From contig JAJRCF010000006.1 of the NCBI GenBank assembly GCA_028679075.1, positions 44,927-108,926 on the forward strand: a stretch of DNA of 64,000 nucleotides. Direction: 5' to 3'. Below the pieces are notes generated by a model. It searched no databases. It was not told where the DNA came from and saw only the letters and a program-made list of their open reading frames with translations. This DNA comes from Methanoregula sp. (GTDB taxonomy: Archaea > Halobacteriota > Methanomicrobia > Methanomicrobiales > Methanospirillaceae). Below, piece after piece: positions 1,950-51,066 of the stretch; positions within the stretch are counted from its first letter, which is position 1; the number at the start of each line of letters is the position of its first letter. A program made the translations under genes and the position numbers.

Positions 1950-1964
1950 TTTTTTTTATCCTGA

Positions 1965-2180
1965 AGGTCCGTCAGGACCTGAAGGACGAGAAGAACGCAT
2001 CAGCGTTCATCGAAGGTCGGCTGATGCCTCCCTTCTCATTTCTCGGGTTTGATAACCCTCGAAACTTCGAATTCCGACCAGTCATCAGACTGGGAGGAAG
2101 AGAAGAACGCATCCGCGTTCTTCGAATGATCCTGAAGGAACCCGTCCGGGTATTCTCCTCCCTCAGAGTGCTTATCACTC
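1965..2180 (+). repeat. hairpin array A between the PhzF gene and mntP
   Basis: Just after a T tract this gap is almost entirely small inverted repeats: AGGTCC-GTCA-GGACCT (1965-1980), AAGAACGC-ATCA-GCGTTCAT (1991-2010, one mismatch), GGGTT-TGAT-AACCC (2044-2057), CCAGTC-ATCA-GACTGG (2078-2093), AAGAACGC-ATCC-GCGTTCTT (2103-2122) and AGAGTG-CTTAT-CACTCT near 2165. They are joined by GAAG or CGAA linkers. The AAGAACGC unit recurs in the array at 14.2 kb. Function is unknown; it may form part of the mntP leader or a downstream terminator array of the PhzF gene. Confidence 0.7.
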
Positions 2181-13613: not shown

Positions 13614-14168
13614 ATGAGAAAATCACTTGTTATTCTTCTGGCTGGCCTTGCCTGCATCATGATGATCGCGGCCGGCTGCACAAGCTCTTCCGGTACCACA
13701 CCGGCAACAACAACCGCTGTTACGACCGCTGCCGCTACCGAAACGGCGACGCCGTCCGCCCCGGCAGCCGAGACCACCATCGTGGTAACGGCAGAAGCAG
13801 CAAACGTTACTGCAAACGTAACAACCGCTGCTCCTGTTGCCGCCCCGTCATGGACCGGGACCTGGAACACGTCGTACGTGTCCTCGGATAAAAAACCGGT
13901 AATGGAAGTCCTCACAATGAACCAGACCGGCTCATCAGTAACCGGGACGTATGGCAAGAACAGCACTGGCACGATCAATGCGACCGTACAGGAAAGCAAA
14001 CTTGCCGGCACCTGGGCCGAGAGCGACCTGACCGGGAATTATACCGGGAAGTTCGAATTTACCCTGTCCGCTGACGAGAAGTCGTTCACCGGCCGGTGGA
14101 TTGATGCATCCGAAAATCTCTCTGCCCTGGCCAACACCACGCAGACGTGGGATGGCGTCAGGGTATAA
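13614..14168 (+). CDS. secreted lipoprotein with a Thr/Ala-rich linker
   Basis: A 184-residue lipoprotein: signal LVILLAGLACIMMIAAG before Cys22, then a 60-residue low-complexity stretch of Thr, Ala and Pro (a likely glycosylated spacer), then a compact domain from SWTGTWNTSYVSS to the end. The repeated pattern of SVTGTYGK, KLAGTWAES and SFTGRWIDAS suggests a small beta-barrel made of short strand pairs, as in some envelope proteins. No enzyme motif is visible. Promoter-like GTTATTTACA lies about 35 bases upstream. Confidence 0.8.
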   Translation: MRKSLVILLAGLACIMMIAAGCTSSSGTTPATTTAVTTAAATETATPSAPAAETTIVVTAEAANVTANVTTAAPVAAPSWTGTWNTSYVSSDKKPVMEVLTMNQTGSSVTGTYGKNSTGTINATVQESKLAGTWAESDLTGNYTGKFEFTLSADEKSFTGRWIDASENLSALANTTQTWDGVRV

Positions 14169-14174
14169 TCGTTC

Positions 14175-14209
14175 TGCCGGGTGATACCCGGTAGGGAAAC
14201 TTTTTTTTA
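14175..14209 (+). terminator. terminator after the lipoprotein gene
   Basis: CCGGGT-GAT-ACCCGG (14178-14192) forms a strong stem shortly after the stop codon and is followed by GGGAAAC and an eight-T run. Hairpin array B begins directly afterwards. Confidence 0.65.
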
Positions 14210-14212
14210 TCC

Positions 14213-14533
14213 GAGCGGTCATAAGGCCGCGAGGACGAGAAGAACGCATCAGCGTTCTTCGAAGAACCCTGTCGGGTTCTTCTCGTCCTCCTGGTTCTGA
14301 CGAACCAGTCGGAATTCGAAGTTGAAGTTGTTTTTCAGGACCCCGACAATGAGAAGGGAGGCATCAGCCGACCTTCGAAGTGCTGATGTGTACTCATCAT
14401 GCATCGGCACTGACGAGGCTCGAAAACTCGAAGGCTAGCTGATGTGTACTTCTCATACATTGGTTCTGGCAATCCTCGAAAACTCGAAGAACGCTGATGC
14501 ACTCTTCTCTTTTCCCGGGTCTGGAGACCCTCA
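14213..14533 (+). repeat. hairpin array B upstream of the TMEM175-like gene
   Basis: The first part folds into a three-way junction: GGACGAG and CTCGTCC enclose two hairpins, AAGAACGC-ATCA-GCGTTCTT (14240-14259) and AAGAACCC-TGTC-GGGTTCTT (14262-14281). CTGGTTC-TGAC-GAACCAG (14291-14308) follows, then repeats of CTGATGTGTACT and CTCGAAAACTCGAAG, ending in GGGTCT-GG-AGACCC near 14517. The AAGAACGC hairpin is identical to one in array A apart from its last arm base. No coding potential is apparent. Confidence 0.75.
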
Positions 14534-14593
14534 AAATCAGCAAAAAACAATATCCTCAACAACCAACCCATCATTACAGGGAGACCGCCCGGC

Positions 14594-15208
14594 ATGGACC
14601 CGATCAACAAGGTGAACCTCGAACGTTTGACGAATGGCATTTACGCATTCACGATGACCCTGATGGTCAGGAACATCACGGCACCCGTTGCAGGGGCGAT
14701 CACCGACGACCTGTCCTTTGCCCAATACCTCATTTCCGTCATCATGGAGATCACCGATTTTGTCGGTGCGTTCATCATCCTCGGGATGTTCTGGCTTTTT
14801 TATTTCCAGATGTTCCACCGGATGAAGACCTTCGATTACCGGTTTCTCTACCTCCATCTCCTTTCCCTGATGATTGTCGTCTTCGTCCCCTTCACCAACA
14901 GCTTTGCCGCACAGAGCGAGGAGGTCCCGGCGTCCAATATCCTGTTCCAGATCAACTACCTCATCCTCGCCATCATCCTGACCTGGCAGTGGCACCATGC
15001 ACGGACCCATCCGGCCCTGCTCGAACCGGAGCTCAAGGAGGCAGAGGCATCATTCCTTGCAAAAAAGTTCCTTGTCCCGCTTGGCGTGGCGATCTTCGGT
15101 ATCATCATGGTTTTGTCGGGAGCCGGGTATATCGATTTCCTGTACCTGCTGCCGTTTGTGATTCTTTTGATCTTCTTCCGGAATGGGCCGGAGAACGTTA
15201 CGGCATAG
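14594..15208 (+). CDS. TMEM175 family (DUF1211) potassium-channel-like protein
   Basis: A 204-residue membrane protein with the TMEM175 signature in its first helix, RLTNGIYAFTMTLMV (family consensus RxxxGIxAFxxTLLV), five or six helices, and FVPFTNSFA in the middle. Prokaryotic TMEM175 proteins are tetrameric K+-permeable channels with one copy of the repeat, as here. ATG 14594 follows GGGAGACC. Its leader and first codons are duplicated as a fragment at 9301-9367. Confidence 0.85.
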   Translation: MDPINKVNLERLTNGIYAFTMTLMVRNITAPVAGAITDDLSFAQYLISVIMEITDFVGAFIILGMFWLFYFQMFHRMKTFDYRFLYLHLLSLMIVVFVPFTNSFAAQSEEVPASNILFQINYLILAIILTWQWHHARTHPALLEPELKEAEASFLAKKFLVPLGVAIFGIIMVLSGAGYIDFLYLLPFVILLIFFRNGPENVTA

Positions 15209-16433
15209 GAGGGAGGCATCATAATTAAAAAAATTTCAAACACGACAAAAATTCAAAAAAAATTTCGGCAACATCCGGAAAAATTTTTCAAAAAAATCTC
15301 ATAAAAAATTCCCCAAATATTTTTTTGCAGATAATCCCCCCGAGCCTCAGCGAAAACACGGTGTTCATCCCTCACCAAAACGCTTGGCAGATATGCTTGG
15401 CGAACCGCAGGTTTAAGGAAAGTACGCGGACACTTTAGATGTGCTAGGGAAAAATGTCAAAACCTGCACACTCCTGTCACCTTTCCAGTCCTGGGGAATG
15501 CAGAAGAAATCTGCCAGAAATGATCCTTTGACAAAGTATCCCTGCGATAATGGGGAATCTATGCCATGCATTGACAGGGGGACCGCCTCCAATCCCCCCC
15601 ACACTCCTTACCACTACCGTCCTTTTCCCTCCACCGACCTCCCTCGCAGCACACACCACTGGATTACTTACCCTCCCGCTCCCCAATCCGGCTCCTATAT
15701 GGCCCCGGATTCCCCTTATTAGGTGCCGGTCCCAGGTATAACCTGCAATTTTGGGTACATTTTTGCTCAGTATTTCCAGAATCCCAAGATACGGGCGATT
15801 TACGCCAAACGGACGATTTTGCATGGTACTGTAAAACGCTAATGTACGCTTATGGATGGCAAAATGGAATGGTGTGAGGGGGGCAGGATGGTCACAGTGA
15901 AGGAAACCTCGATATTGCCTTTTTTTGGATCTCCGTCGGAGCACGCTCCCACCGCCGGTCCCGGTGGTGTCATAACTACCCTGGGTGAGATACCCTCTCC
16001 CATTTCCCCATCTCCGACGGAGACCCCCAGTCAGGATCCCTCCACCACCCACCCTAAGAGGCACTAATTCGAAGACATTCGTCTTCTCTTGTCTCATGCT
16101 TTCAGCATTCGACATCGCGAAAATGAGGTCATAATTCCGGGATTTTTCCCATTTTCACGTCGGAGAATGAGAGGTCATATTTAGGCGCATTTGGGCGGCA
16201 GATCTCCCCTTCCGCGGGTGTCTGGACGTGGAAACGTAACCGGGTGAAGATATGACCTTTTTTTGGGTATGTGCCCGATTTACCGTCGAAGAACACGGGT
16301 GCGTTCGGTCGAAGACCTGGATATAACGTCATGACGGGCCCGGGTTTTCTGTTGTTGCGGCCCCGGGTTCCGGATAAGGGCACGTGCGTTGGATATCACC
16401 TGCAGCCCGCCATCAATTGCCAGAATATCCCGG
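15209..16433 (+). other. 1.2-kb intergenic region with repeats and no convincing gene
   Basis: It opens with about 100 bases of A/T runs (15225-15325), then GC-richer sequence containing the second 171-nt repeat. Near 15929-15941 and 16010-16022 are ATCTCCGTCGGAG and ATCTCCGACGGAG, each near-palindromic and mutually complementary. GAGGTCATA occurs at 16125 and 16171 and its complement TATGACCT at 16251. The minus-strand ORF 15477-16115 crosses all of this, is low-complexity Gly/Arg-rich and looks spurious. Confidence 0.5.
15682..15852 (+). repeat. 171-nt intergenic repeat, copy 2
   Basis: Gapless counterpart of 10452-10622 in the same orientation. The terminal 60 bases differ at only about a dozen positions, whereas the middle is more diverged. 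The AATCCGG/CCGGATT stem is kept although its loop differs, and a diverged GGATGGCAAAA follows, corresponding to GGAGGCAAAA after copy 1. Confidence 0.7.
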
Positions 16434-20081: not shown

Positions 20082-22424
20082 ATGATAAAAGAGATCTTTG
20101 AAGGCATTGCGAACACGATCATCAGGAGACCGAAACTGGTCGCGGTACTGATCCTTGTCCTCTTCGGCATCGGTATTTACGGCACGACCCTGCTCACCAT
20201 GGAGACGGGATGGAAGACCTATGTATTCAAGGATTCTCCTTCCGGGGCCATTGAGAAAAAATACAATGAGGACTACAAGTCGGATACGATCATCCTCATC
20301 ATCGAAGCCGGCGACTCGCTCAGCCCGGATGTCCTGGACTATGTCGATAATCTCGAAACGGATCTGCGGCAACAGCAGAATATCGAGAGCGTCCAGAGCA
20401 TCACCGATGTCCTGAAGATGTACAACGGGGGCACGCTGCCCTCGTCGCAGGAACAGACGCTCGCCATTGTCAATACCCTTCCCGAAAGCACCCGCAACAC
20501 GCTCTATCCTTCTAATGTGCTGACCCTCGTCCAGATCAAGCTCACGCCGGGATTGTCTGAGAAGGTCCAGAAGTCCGTACTCAGCAACGCACAATCGGTC
20601 GTCGACACGTCCGCTGCACCACCCGGTGTGACCGTTGAAATGTCCGGTTCGCCGGCATTCTCCCAGCAGATGAGCGCGGGACTCATGAGCAACATGGGCA
20701 TCCTCATTGGAGGTGCCATGGTCCTGATGATCATCACGATGGGGATCCTTTTTTCCTATGTCCGGCACCGGTTCATGCCGGTCCTGCTCGTCGCGATCGG
20801 TCTCGTCACCTCTCTTGGCCTGATGGGTATTGCCGGCATCAGCCTGAACATGGCGGTGATCGGGGCCTTCCCGGTCCTCATCGGCCTTGGGATCGATTAC
20901 GCGATCCAGTTCCATGCCCGGTTCGATGAGGAGGCGAGGAAAGGATCCCTTGATGATGCGGTCTTTATTACCGTGACCCGCACCGGCCCGGCCGTCATGT
21001 ATGCGATGCTCGCCACATCCATGGGATTTGTGGCCATGTATGTCTCAACGGTCCCGATGATCCGCTCGTTCGGGGTTGTCTCCATCATCGGCATCAACAC
21101 CTGCTTCTGGGTATCCTGCATCGGCATGCCCACGATCGCCCTCCTGGTGAACTACAAGCCCAAGCCCGAAAAGACCGGGCAGTGCTATGCTGTGGGAACG
21201 GATGCGTGCGATACGATCATCGATAACCCGAAGAACCGTGCCAGAAACGGGAAGAAAAGTTCCTTCTCCTATGGAGAGTTCCTCACTAGTACCTCCGTAA
21301 AAATTGCAAAGAACCCGATCCCTGTCCTTCTCGTTGCCGGTCTTATCGCCCTTATCGGGTTCCAGATCGACCCGACCATCCCGGTCAGTTCTGATGAGAA
21401 TGCCTTTGTTCCCTCGGATATGCCGGCCAAGATCAACATGGAGAAGGTCAGCCGGGTCATTGGTGCAACCAGTACCGCAGACCTGCTGGTCCAGGGATCA
21501 CGGGTAACCGACCTCGATACCGTGATATGGATAAAGGAGTTCCAGAACTACGAACTCTCGCACCATGCGGAAATGACCGGGGCGACAAGCATCGCCACGT
21601 ATGTCCTCCAGTATAACGGCGGCGTGATGCCGGAGACGCAGGACCAGCTCAATACCGTGCTCTCAAAAATACCGGAAGTTACACGGGAATCCGTCCTGAG
21701 TGACCCGATGTGCGGGATCATAAAGTTCAGCACCAAAAAGATCTCGATCTCCCAGCAGAACGCCCTAAAAGAGCAGGTGAAAAAGGATATTGCGTTCCTC
21801 GAACCCCCCATCGGGATCTCGGTAGAGCCCGCCGGGAACTTCGAGGTGACAACCACGCTCTTAAAGGCCATGTCAGACTCGAAGGATACGATGACCCTGC
21901 TCGGGTTCATCTTTGTCTTCATCTTCCTGATCCTTGTCTACCGGCACCTCCACGCGGTCTCACCGATCATCCCGATCATCTTCGTGGTCGGCTGGAACGC
22001 GGTCATGATGTACCTGATCGGGCTCACCTACAACCCGCTCACGGCAACCCTCGGGTCGATGACGATCGGTGTTGCCGCAGAATACACGATCCTTGTCATG
22101 GAGCGGTATGCAGAAGAGGAGGAGCGGCTCCATGACCCGATAGCCGCCATCCAGGAGAGCGTCCAGAAGATCGGCACGGCGATCACGGTCTCGGGCCTTG
22201 CGACCTTCTTCGGGTTCTCGGCACTCTGCCTTGCGACCTTCCCCATCATCAGCAACTTCGGTATCTCTACTCTCATCGCCGTCGCGTTCTCCCTGGTGGG
22301 CGCGATCTTTATCATGCCGGCAGCGCTCGCTGTCGTGGGCAGTCTGGATGAATGGCTCAGGGCAAAAAAGTCACAGGTGTTCACGAAAAAAGAGAATGAT
22401 CCAAGTCCCGGCAATACTCCGTAA
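20082..22424 (+). CDS. RND superfamily exporter (MMPL/HAE3-like)
   Basis: A 780-residue membrane protein with the RND duplication: a helix near 17-37, a large external loop to about 205, five helices (205-355), then the same pattern repeated from about 415. The transmembrane acidic motif is intact in the first half (GLGIDYAIQFHARFDEEA) and is IGVAAEYTILVMERYAEEEE in the second, with Glu where the first half has Asp. HAE3-type archaeal RND proteins are thought to move lipids or hydrophobic molecules using the ion gradient. No membrane-fusion partner is adjacent. Confidence 0.9.
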   Translation: MIKEIFEGIANTIIRRPKLVAVLILVLFGIGIYGTTLLTMETGWKTYVFKDSPSGAIEKKYNEDYKSDTIILIIEAGDSLSPDVLDYVDNLETDLRQQQNIESVQSITDVLKMYNGGTLPSSQEQTLAIVNTLPESTRNTLYPSNVLTLVQIKLTPGLSEKVQKSVLSNAQSVVDTSAAPPGVTVEMSGSPAFSQQMSAGLMSNMGILIGGAMVLMIITMGILFSYVRHRFMPVLLVAIGLVTSLGLMGIAGISLNMAVIGAFPVLIGLGIDYAIQFHARFDEEARKGSLDDAVFITVTRTGPAVMYAMLATSMGFVAMYVSTVPMIRSFGVVSIIGINTCFWVSCIGMPTIALLVNYKPKPEKTGQCYAVGTDACDTIIDNPKNRARNGKKSSFSYGEFLTSTSVKIAKNPIPVLLVAGLIALIGFQIDPTIPVSSDENAFVPSDMPAKINMEKVSRVIGATSTADLLVQGSRVTDLDTVIWIKEFQNYELSHHAEMTGATSIATYVLQYNGGVMPETQDQLNTVLSKIPEVTRESVLSDPMCGIIKFSTKKISISQQNALKEQVKKDIAFLEPPIGISVEPAGNFEVTTTLLKAMSDSKDTMTLLGFIFVFIFLILVYRHLHAVSPIIPIIFVVGWNAVMMYLIGLTYNPLTATLGSMTIGVAAEYTILVMERYAEEEERLHDPIAAIQESVQKIGTAITVSGLATFFGFSALCLATFPIISNFGISTLIAVAFSLVGAIFIMPAALAVVGSLDEWLRAKKSQVFTKKENDPSPGNTP

Positions 22425-22660
22425 CCCCGGAATTTTTCCGGGACGGCCACGGACACCGACGGGACCGGGTTCACAGGTTTTTTCCACCATCATTTTTAAA
22501 AAATTAAAAAAACCCGGTACACTCAAATTTTTTCGGGCTTTACTAAAAAAACCGGAATCCCCGTCGTTCCAATCCTCTCGCATACGCGTAGAAAAAACCG
22601 GAGAACAGATCAAAACGCCTAATATCTCGCATACCAGATCCGGATCACGTGGTGCCACAC

Positions 22661-23011
22661 ATGGCAGATAATTACCGTATCAGGGAGATCACGGACGAGG
22701 AGTACGACAAACTCACGCCGGACCAGCAGTTCGGGTATAACCTGGACGCCTGCACCCGGAGAGAATTAGCCTGGGCGAAAAAAGATTACGATGCCACGAT
22801 GAGTATTGTTGGTCCTGCATCCCTTGCGATCATTACCAACGTCACTGGTCTCCTCGTCTTCGTCCTCACCAGTTCCTTCCTCTCGGTCCTCCTTGTTGTC
22901 GGCGGGACTTCGGTTGCAGTGTTATGGGCGGTCATCCGCGTTGTCTTGCGTTCCCATGCGTACCGGCACCTGCGGGATACCGAAACCGAGCCCACGTCCA
23001 CAACCGGATAA
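22661..23011 (+). CDS. small two-helix membrane protein of unknown function
   Basis: A 116-residue protein. Residues 1-45 are polar (ITDEEYDKLTPDQQFGYNLDACTRRELAWAKK), residues 50-95 hold two hydrophobic helices (IITNVTGLLVFVL and LLVVGGTSVAVLWAV), and the tail is rich in Thr. I choose ATG 22661; the ORF track begins four codons upstream at GTG. No family recognised. It follows the RND gene by 236 bases and could be independent. Confidence 0.6.
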   Translation: MADNYRIREITDEEYDKLTPDQQFGYNLDACTRRELAWAKKDYDATMSIVGPASLAIITNVTGLLVFVLTSSFLSVLLVVGGTSVAVLWAVIRVVLRSHAYRHLRDTETEPTSTTG

Positions 23012-23087
23012 TACGCAGGCGGGTAAAACACCGGCCTGTATTCAGGCCCTGCAGTCCAGTACCTGAATACTATTACACACGTCCCGC

Positions 23088-23366
23088 TTACGGTCCGGAG
23101 ATCCTGAACTCACAGGTCTTGTTCTCCCTGCAGACCTGGCAGACCTGGAGAATTATTTCACAGTGAACACAGTCAGGCTTATTCGCGAGCTCGCAGTTAT
23201 CGCAATCCGGCTCATCGGGCTCCGGGCAATCGCCATCAGGGCTATGACATTGTCCGGGAACCCCGGGCTTTTTCTTAAACTCTTCCATGCACACGTTACA
23301 GAGGGCATCGAGGCAGGACTCGCATTCTGCGGCCAGGGGATCGCAACCCCAGTTCAGGTATGTCAT
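23088..23366 (-). CDS. cysteine-rich CxxC protein, putative metal binder
   Basis: A 92-residue protein from ATG 23366 with fourteen cysteines, including five CxxC pairs (CESC, CNVC, CDNC, CVHC, CQVC). A middle section is acidic and proline-rich (CPEPDEPDC). The spacing resembles zinc-ribbon or iron-sulfur ligand sets but fits no ferredoxin consensus (no CxxCxxCxxxC). It has no signal peptide, so in the reducing cytoplasm the thiols would most likely bind metal. The ORF track starts at TTG 11 codons upstream. Confidence 0.65.
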   Translation of the reverse strand: MTYLNWGCDPLAAECESCLDALCNVCMEEFKKKPGVPGQCHSPDGDCPEPDEPDCDNCELANKPDCVHCEIILQVCQVCRENKTCEFRISGP

Positions 23367-23466
23367 GACGGTATCCCAGCTATAGTGTACTGCGGACAAA
23401 AAATAATTGCGACAGGAAACGTGATCATAAAATTTTACCTTCGCGGAGAGCGTATAAAAAAAGCAT

Positions 23467-24633
23467 ATGGTCCGGCTGCACTACATCGACAACCTCCGGT
23501 GGATGAGCATCCTCCTGGTCTTTGTTGTCCATGCGGCCGTTGTCTTCTCTGACGGGTGGTTCGGGTATTACGTGACATCGGCATACTCGTCCGAGGCAGC
23601 GCTCGTCATTCTTCTCCTGATCATGCCGTGGCTGATGCTGCTTCTCTTCTGCATCGCCGGCATCAGCACGCGGTTTGCACTCGCGAAGAGGGCCCCCTCC
23701 CTCTACCTGAAGGAGCGGGTCGTAAAACTCCTGGTCCCGTTCCTTGCCGGCATTGTCCTGCTCTGCCCCATCCTCGCGTACTTCGGCATGAAGTCCCACG
23801 GGTACCCGGATGTTACCTTCCCGGAGGCGGTTGTGCATTTCTTCTCCAGCTGGAACAACATCCGGGACCCGTCGGGATTCACCGGTGACTTCGACATGGG
23901 CCATCTCTGGTTCATCGGGTACCTGTTCGTGATCTCGGTGGCTGCCCTTGGATTCATCCTGCTTACACAGAAACAGCAGCGTACCGGCATCAGCCCGGAG
24001 ACGGTCAGCCTGCCATTCCTCATCCTTCTCGTTGTACCGCTCTGGCTCCTGAATGGTATCGGCCCCGGCGTAGACGGGTACACGCTGGCCTCGTACTTTG
24101 CGGTCTTCCTCTTTGGGTATTACTTCCTTTCAGATGATACAGTCCTCGCCCGGCTGGAGAACCATTGGGCGGTCCTCGCCGCCATATGGGCAGTCCTCAC
24201 GCTCTGCCTCCTTGCCGTGGGTGCCGGCATCCTGCCCGGTGGTTCTGCAATCGATGATATTACGGCCTCACCGCTCGCGCCGCTCACCGGGTGGGTGGGC
24301 GTCCTCGCGGTCCTGGGCACTGGCCGGCACCTGCTCAACCGGACTGGCAGGGCAGAAGCGTACCTGAGCGCATCCTCGTACCCCATCTATATCCTCCAGT
24401 CGCCGGTCCTCGTGGCGGTTGCGTGGTACGTGGTGGCGCTCCCCTTTGGCCCGCTCATGCAGTATTTCCTGATCCTGGCCGCGAGCATTCCCGGCACCTT
24501 CGCCCTGTATGAGATCATACGGCGGCTGCCGGGCGTGCGGGTGCTGTTCGGGGTCGCGGGGCAAAAAAAGAAACGGTGTAACGTTCCGGCATTCCCCGTG
24601 GCTGATCGGGCAGGCCGCGGGAAAGAGAGATAA
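23467..24633 (+). CDS. acyltransferase-3 family membrane protein
   Basis: A 388-residue protein with ten or more helices of the acyltransferase-3 (OpgC/OafA-like) family. The signature is at the amino end, HYIDNLRWMSILLVFVVHAA, including the conserved Arg and His, and GHLWFIGYLFVIS lies near residue 145. Such enzymes acylate sugars of extracellular polysaccharides, lipids or glycans using cytoplasmic acyl donors. The last 35 residues are polar and basic. Single gene. Confidence 0.85.
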   Translation: MVRLHYIDNLRWMSILLVFVVHAAVVFSDGWFGYYVTSAYSSEAALVILLLIMPWLMLLLFCIAGISTRFALAKRAPSLYLKERVVKLLVPFLAGIVLLCPILAYFGMKSHGYPDVTFPEAVVHFFSSWNNIRDPSGFTGDFDMGHLWFIGYLFVISVAALGFILLTQKQQRTGISPETVSLPFLILLVVPLWLLNGIGPGVDGYTLASYFAVFLFGYYFLSDDTVLARLENHWAVLAAIWAVLTLCLLAVGAGILPGGSAIDDITASPLAPLTGWVGVLAVLGTGRHLLNRTGRAEAYLSASSYPIYILQSPVLVAVAWYVVALPFGPLMQYFLILAASIPGTFALYEIIRRLPGVRVLFGVAGQKKKRCNVPAFPVADRAGRGKER

Positions 24634-50698: not shown

Positions 50699-51066
50699 TC
50701 TAACTCTCCAATTTTCTTAATAGAATTCTTGTAATACTGATGGGGGCTTATGTACCCGTGCCCCTGTTTGGGAGAACTACCGCCGCTTCGAAGAACCTGA
50801 TGGTTTTTCTCAAAAACATTCCTCACTGATGCGATGACTGATTCCCCGAAGGACACCCCGCGGCGGCCTCATTTACTTATAAGAAATCGCATGCAAGTGA
50901 TTGCCGTGCCGCAGAGCGGCCCTGAGAGGCGGGGAGCCCTCATTTTCAACACAATTCACCCTAATGAGCAGATATCTCACGTCCTCTTTTCTATGAGCAT
51001 ACTCCCGGATCCAGATCAACACTCCTAATACCCGGTACAACAGACCATCAGCAGGACGATCCGGAT
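50699..51066 (+). other. gap with a weak hairpin-array relative
   Basis: CTTCGAAGAACCTGATGGTTTTTC near 50787-50812 (imperfect AAGAACC-TGAT-GGTTTTT hairpin) resembles the arrays at 2.0 and 14.2 kb. The rest includes possible promoter DNA for the sensor kinase gene (no clear TATA), and no gene. Confidence 0.4.

Follow-up and report, generated by a model that had tools for sequence, protein, structure and literature searches.

Known intergenic palindromes of the REP/BIME type are bacterial and come with a dedicated HUH transposase. Organelle genomes contain double-hairpin elements, which are short, consist of two hairpins with variable stems, spread in bursts and have no enzyme of their own. These elements and the palindromic repeats of organelle genomes have a literature of their own (e.g. 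PMC2670323). REPs, BIMEs and REPINs are extragenic, abundant and arranged in alternating orientation, and their palindromy is preserved through complementary changes (PMC2817692); the definition of a REP includes a GT[AG]G guide tetranucleotide at the foot of the hairpin (PMC6006769). During replication, template switching can both generate perfect stems and preserve them, with no G.U stage in between (PMC8794818). Here we analysed hairpin array B, located in a 64,000-nucleotide stretch of a Methanoregula genome (the window; genome G000). Array B is probably a copy of a dispersed, intergenic, non-autonomous palindromic DNA repeat of archaea that resembles BIMEs and REPINs and whose stems are kept by template switching. 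No earlier description of such palindromic repeats in Methanoregula or Methanomicrobiales was found in the open-access literature and, as far as that literature goes, the family appears to be undescribed.

The units of array B were called as matches to R1, a covariance model built from 19 units (its E-values are rough), and the array extends slightly beyond the segment 14213-14533 that had drawn attention to it (Table 1). The unit, of approximately 56 nt, consists of hairpin H1, linker L1 (TCNTCCTC), hairpin H2 and linker L2 (TCGGANTTC), a grammar derived from reading 16 further arrays beyond array B. H1 follows the pattern GAAGAANNN-loop-NNNTTCTTC and H2 the pattern NNGGTY-TGAT-RACCNN; a variant H1, GAAGGTCGGC-TGAT-GCCTCCCTTC, was seen repeatedly across many arrays. 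Unit 1 is inverted and reads L2, H2 (GCGGTC-ATAA-GGCCGC, with one T.G mismatch), L1 and H1. Unit 2 reads H1, L1, H2 (CTGGTTC-TGAC-GAACCAG) and L2 (TCGGAATTC); it is itself a member of the R1 seed alignment (A1). The perfect three-way junction of 55 bases described in the original prediction is present, measuring 56 nt if GGACGAG/CTCGTCC and hairpins of 8 bp are counted and 60 nt in full with hairpins of 9 bp. It is a head-to-head pair of units with complementary L1 linkers, which pair over 8 bp around the two 9-bp H1 tetraloop hairpins of units 1 and 2. The DNA fold of 14206-14317, which takes in the larger dimer, reached -41.8 kcal/mol (z -9.5). Unit 3 contains the variant H1 (GAAGGGAGGCATCAGCCGACCTTC, 14353-14376), found again in many other arrays, followed by L1 (GACAATGA) and a decayed H2. 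Unit 4 is made of H1 (GAAGAACGCTGATGCACTCTTC, two mismatches), L1 (TCTTTTCCC) and H2 (GGGTC-TGGA-GACCC). The CTCGAAAACTCGAAG repeats noted beforehand correspond to the direct repeats D1 between units 3 and 4, which are decayed units.

Table 1. Features of array B, array A and their surroundings in the window.
Feature	Position	Strand	Evidence or content
Hairpin array B, whole	about 14206..14539	.	four R1 units, order -,+,-,+
Unit 1 (inverted)	14206..14263	-	R1 match, 70.6 bits, and sequence
Unit 2	14258..14317	+	R1 match, 78.6 bits, and sequence
Three-way junction	14231..14290	.	inverted repeats I1, I15 and I16 and DNA fold
Junction, L1 of unit 1	14231-14238		GAGGACGA
Junction, H1 of unit 1	14239-14260		GAAGAACGC-ATCA-GCGTTCTTC
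Junction, H1 of unit 2	14261-14282		GAAGAACCC-TGTC-GGGTTCTTC
Junction, L1 of unit 2	14283-14290		TCGTCCTC
Larger closed palindromic dimer	14210..14313	.	outer stem TCCGA/TCGGA around the three-way junction and an H2 on either side of it
Unit 3 (inverted)	14311..14379	-	R1 match, 18.6 bits
Two 52-nt direct repeats D1, CTCGAAAACTCGAAG ends	14382..14489 (copies 14382-14433 and 14438-14489)	+	repeat search, 81% identity, spacing 56
Unit 4	14483..14539	+	R1 match, 35.0 bits; also picked up by the locating script
Isolated weak pair of hairpins resembling a unit, GAAGACATTCGTCTTC-TCTTGTCTC-ATGCTTTCAGCAT (uncertain)	16068..16116	+	R1, 18.1 bits, E 0.009
Upstream gene, 184-aa lipoprotein-like protein	13614..14168	+	signal with AAGC lipobox
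T8 tract directly 5' of array B, probable terminator	14201..14208	+	sequence
Downstream gene, TMEM175-type channel protein	14594..15208	+	Pfam PF06736, E 1.3e-16
Array A, three units (-,+,-)	1955..2126	.	after a T8 tract, between PhzF-like and MntP genes
Array A, first unit	1955-2014	-	R1 match
Array A, second unit	2009-2067	+	R1 match
Array A, third unit	2069-2126	-	R1 match

Array B lies as first described, behind a T-tract that follows a lipoprotein-like gene and ahead of a TMEM175 gene. The lipoprotein-like protein had no match in the Pfam search; judged from the sequence, the tract is the probable terminator of its gene. Array A, between genes assigned by Pfam to PF02567 (PhzF-like) and PF02659 (MntP), had been said to occupy the same kind of position, and a T-tract does precede both arrays, but in G000 such a tract, read as an A-run adjoining the outer L2 end, stood at just 7 of 24 ends against a background of 8.4% (p 0.003, post hoc), and among the outer ends listed from G040, a second Methanoregula genome, none had one. 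The T-tract shared by the two arrays probably reflects a tendency, not a rule, and the T-tract as an insertion target was rejected, the excess being mild, post hoc and restricted to G000. Arrays were intergenic in nearly all sampled cases. Gene orientations came from a home-made caller. Of 33 arrays whose flanks were clear, 19 lay between tandem, 9 between convergent and 5 between divergent genes, compared to 161, 61 and 106, respectively, for intergenic gaps of at least 100 bp. Divergent promoter regions are somewhat avoided, and no rule places arrays after genes: the idea that copies are always at gene 3' ends fails on the 5 of 33 arrays between divergent genes. An apparent gene desert beside an array in contig C1 of G000 (20394-23501) was actually a gene missed by the caller.

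The covariance-model search of related genomes that the original prediction had suggested was decisive and exposed a dispersed family. The array sequence had 53 BLASTN matches in its own genome. R1 matches numbered at least 131 in G000, at least 127 in G040 (closed, 2,820,858 bp), at least 132 in G052, 88 in G014, 69 in G019, 58 in G002 and 52 in G046, that is, 52 to at least 132 units in each of six array-rich Methanoregula genomes beside G000; several of the compared genomes are fragmented MAGs. The remaining 32 members of the genus had 0-10 matches each. The spread is therefore burst-like in copy number, the repeat having multiplied in some Methanoregula lineages and being nearly absent from others. 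Amplification was also found in the sister genus g13 (44 R1 matches in G056), and all R1 matches in a class-wide sample fell within the same order. Exact-pattern matches in named records belonged to Methanoregula sp. and to one Methanomicrobiales MAG. A viral origin was rejected, as 13 pattern matches in viral contigs were due to chance, with no hairpins in their sequence. A similar grammar, made of a GAAG..CTTC hairpin, TCATGCTC, a second hairpin and TCGCAC, was found in genera g5 and g35, which belong to a different family of the order; its exact pattern gave 32 matches vs. 0 for the reversed control. Separately, identical unit-like hairpin pairs were observed in G140, also of another family of the order, approximately 45 bp inside a GAGGTCATCCCAAAA repeat (L204, L208, L212, L216 and L220). 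The start of this repeat looks like the end of an insertion sequence, and most copies are at contig ends.

The original prediction left open a structured RNA or a DNA cruciform. The element might act as a structured non-coding RNA or 3'-UTR element, its hairpins working in the transcript, for example in mRNA 3'-end protection or protein binding. The predicted RNA fold of the 321-nt segment was indeed very strong (-154 kcal/mol, z -10.1 on the + strand), but the opposite strand folded equally well (-149 kcal/mol, z -10.1); 0 of 100 shuffles came near these values. Stem covariation, alongside conserved loops and linkers, likewise speaks for an RNA. In seed alignment A1 loops and linkers are conserved, whereas both arms of the stems vary, with 47 cells showing two-sided changes; 98.2% of the cells were paired, compared to 81.3% in shuffles and 38-54% in slid alignments, and the covariation score was above every shuffle and every slide. 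As the seed was chosen for paired stems, this measure of covariation is overstated for H2 and for the five outer pairs of H1; no such selection applied to the inner pairs of H1, which showed 24 double changes vs. 2 non-pairs.

RNA helices tolerate G.U pairs, and a G.U read from the opposite strand is an A.C. Across 115 model matches (1473 stem cells), 1354 cells were Watson-Crick, 28 G.U, 38 A.C and 53 other, whereas a small control, the acceptor stems of tRNAs at these loci (133 cells), had 123 Watson-Crick, 10 G.U, 0 A.C and 0 other. Oriented by the sense of the flanking genes, the mismatches comprised 10 wobble vs. 18 anti-wobble. The 115 matches were drawn from 864 kb of searched stretches and a further 400 kb; C10 and the G040 stretches L086-L089 were sampled for containing matches, and C1 of G000 and G040 bases 1-320,000, 320,001-580,000 and 600,001-740,000 irrespective of them. 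The test of symmetry is conservative because R1 itself should favour G.U over A.C. Mismatches are thus strand-symmetric with no excess of G.U, and therefore stem pairing is maintained at the DNA level and not through selection on RNA. Selection for a cruciform or for hairpins of single-stranded DNA could equally yield this pattern.

An Rfam gathering search of the window returned nothing in the arrays; its sole match was the C/D-box sRNA sR3 (RF01133, 405-464, 63.2 bits). The DNA-palindrome half of the earlier proposal fits these results, and the RNA half found no support in them. The position of A and B after T-tracts at gene 3' ends favours an RNA, but an array behind a T-tract that terminates the upstream transcript would not be part of that transcript. 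Both unit orientations occur within one array, divergent genes flank some arrays, orthologous sites are empty and most congeners have few or no copies. We consider an RNA element very unlikely.

Individual sites were found empty. In G052, although it is array-rich, the PhzF and MntP genes that flank array A in G000 have no array between them. Among 21 gene pairs conserved between the sampled parts of G000 and G040, three had arrays in G000 and 0 of the three in G040. The array at C10:39715-40088 of G000 lies in a 436-bp spacer; its counterpart genes in G040 are approximately 50 bp apart, with no array. Reciprocal best hits between these genomes average only about 59% protein identity, and the spacers have diverged too far for the empty sites to reveal target-site duplications. 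Array positions were mostly not conserved between species. One orthologous unit, after a HEAT-repeat gene, is common to G014 and G040, and the arrays diverge beyond it; arrays are therefore old in places yet turning over. Five identical 55-bp tandem units were found in G014 (L038:1361-1640; GAAGAACCCTCGCGGGTTCTTC TCATGTCTC GGGTCTTCGACCC TCTCTCTCATC).

Other dispersed repeats were also observed. A second hairpin family, P (ACGATGGCTCCCCGCCTCAGGGCCTCTCCGAGGCACGGCGGGGCA), is present in the window (50903-50941, - strand) and elsewhere in G000 (C1:230784, C36:4677, C1:210843 and others), and its inner stem varies in matched pairs (GCCTC/GAGGC, GCCCC/GGGGC, GCCGC/GCGGC). A third hairpin-rich motif, Q (CTTGCCCAGCGAGGGCCCGACGAGGCGCCCGAGCGACTCC...GGAG; G000 C1:282927, C16:61915, C38:6181 and others; L187, L188, L186), is often 60-100 nt downstream of P. 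Single units in G040 (C1:45968-46010 and 254487-254540) are followed by the same dispersed repeat, GAATTCTGAYCCSACAAGACCCYTTAGGACTAAGTACCC. One H1-H2 unit of approximately 54 nt sits at the apex of four copies of P, and seven copies lack it at the same point. CGAGG stands on both sides of the inserted unit in one copy and is degenerate in the other three; this 5-bp duplication could be a slippage product, and the four filled copies may be one subfamily and not four insertions.

The presence or absence of a 54-nt unit at one point of P, flanked by CGAGG in one copy, would suit a miniature element that a DDE insertion-sequence transposase moves in trans or that travels within insertion sequences, as would the unit-like hairpins of G140 inside a repeat with an IS-like end. 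However, no constant terminal inverted repeat or target duplication was seen across the arrays, long arrays are atypical of MITEs, and no insertion-sequence end was recognised beside Methanoregula arrays, which makes this origin quite improbable. Pairing at the DNA level and conserved linkers and loops would also be expected of a host DNA element selected for its cruciform or hairpin, such as a binding site for nucleoid, topoisomerase or repair proteins, and gyrase and IHF do bind BIMEs (PMC2817692). Such a role is unlikely nonetheless: most species of the genus have none or nearly none of these repeats, their positions are mostly unconserved, and unit number and array length vary freely. The repeat behaves as non-autonomous, probably selfish DNA and presumably has no host function.

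Units are joined head-to-head at CTTC|GAAG, tail-to-tail or in tandem. Orientation alternates: adjacent units in 36 arrays were alternating in 23 cases vs. 9 in the same direction (p 0.02), and the overlap offset was identical in 8 of 13 head-to-head pairs. A CRISPR array was rejected, since stems and linkers differ between units and the tandem of G014 (period 55) has no unique spacers. The foot of the hairpin in alignment A1 has TTC/GAAG on one side and TCTC on the other, and the guide tetranucleotide GT[AG]G is absent from it. The genome-wide search for a mobiliser was confined to Y1_Tnp (PF01797; TnpA_REP/RAYT) and reverse transcriptase (PF00078, RVT_1). Both were absent from 7 of 7 array-rich genomes, including the closed genome G040; Y1_Tnp was present only in five array-poor genomes. 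RAYT/Y1_Tnp and reverse transcriptase were rejected as movers on these grounds, and with the latter a retroelement or reverse transcriptase-driven repeat. Among 79 sites with 322 ORFs no recurrent gene family was found beside the arrays, the recurrent neighbour clusters being duplicate loci, syntenic orthologues or spurious ORFs. More than 100 extragenic palindromes that alternate, form inverted dimers and change their stems in a complementary manner recall the REPs and BIMEs of bacteria (PMC2817692), and a true REP, BIME or REPIN would be moved by TnpA_REP (RAYT) or another Y1 HUH transposase acting on single-stranded hairpins. The distribution of Y1_Tnp and the hairpin foot speak against this mover, which is largely refuted already and, in our judgement, very unlikely.

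The reading that we prefer, a non-autonomous DNA repeat with stems kept by template switching, can be set out as follows. Units of approximately 56 nt (H1, linker, H2, linker), laid head-to-head and tail-to-tail, build the arrays; units or arrays are gained and lost at individual sites, probably moving as a unit of approximately 54 nt or as an inverted dimer, and arrays grow through duplication or inversion of units. The stems stay near-perfectly Watson-Crick paired while their letters drift, most likely through template switching, in which one arm would be recopied from the other during single-stranded phases or when the hairpin stalls a fork. We hold a bolder version to be doubtful: a chained-hairpin mobile DNA of archaea that spreads as single-stranded or cruciform DNA, is moved by an activity that differs from the known transposases and renews its stems through template switching. 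If true, what is kept in such DNA is the fold and not the sequence, and the similar grammar of g5 and g35 would point to an ancient system spanning the order.

As an archaeal family with the architecture of the bacterial palindromes has multiplied without an HUH transposase, its mobiliser becomes a concrete search target. The hundreds of natural hairpins allow template switching to be separated from selection on RNA by comparing G.U with A.C. They also carry a warning: structured RNAs are usually recognised by covarying stems, yet such stems alone can arise in DNA whose pairing is not upheld as RNA.

Compared to known systems, the Methanoregula repeat resembles REPs, BIMEs and REPINs in its more than 100 extragenic palindromes, alternating clusters, inverted dimers, complementary stem changes and patchy occurrence among relatives; the head-to-head pair that forms the three-way junction resembles a bacterial REPIN or BIME. 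It differs from them in being archaeal, in its two-hairpin unit with the linkers TCNTCCTC and TCGGANTTC, and in the lack of both a GT[AG]G foot and a Y1 transposase in carrier genomes. Like MITEs, it is a short, non-autonomous repeat present or absent at a given site; unlike them, it showed no constant terminal inverted repeat or consistent target duplication, and no cognate transposase was found. The double-hairpin elements of organelles are similar in the general traits given above, but they belong to organelles and not to archaea. It resembles the hairpins formed by template switching (PMC8794818) in that both arms of a stem change and pairing is perfect with no G.U stage, but those hairpins are in RNA genes, while the stems of the Methanoregula repeat lie in dispersed intergenic DNA.
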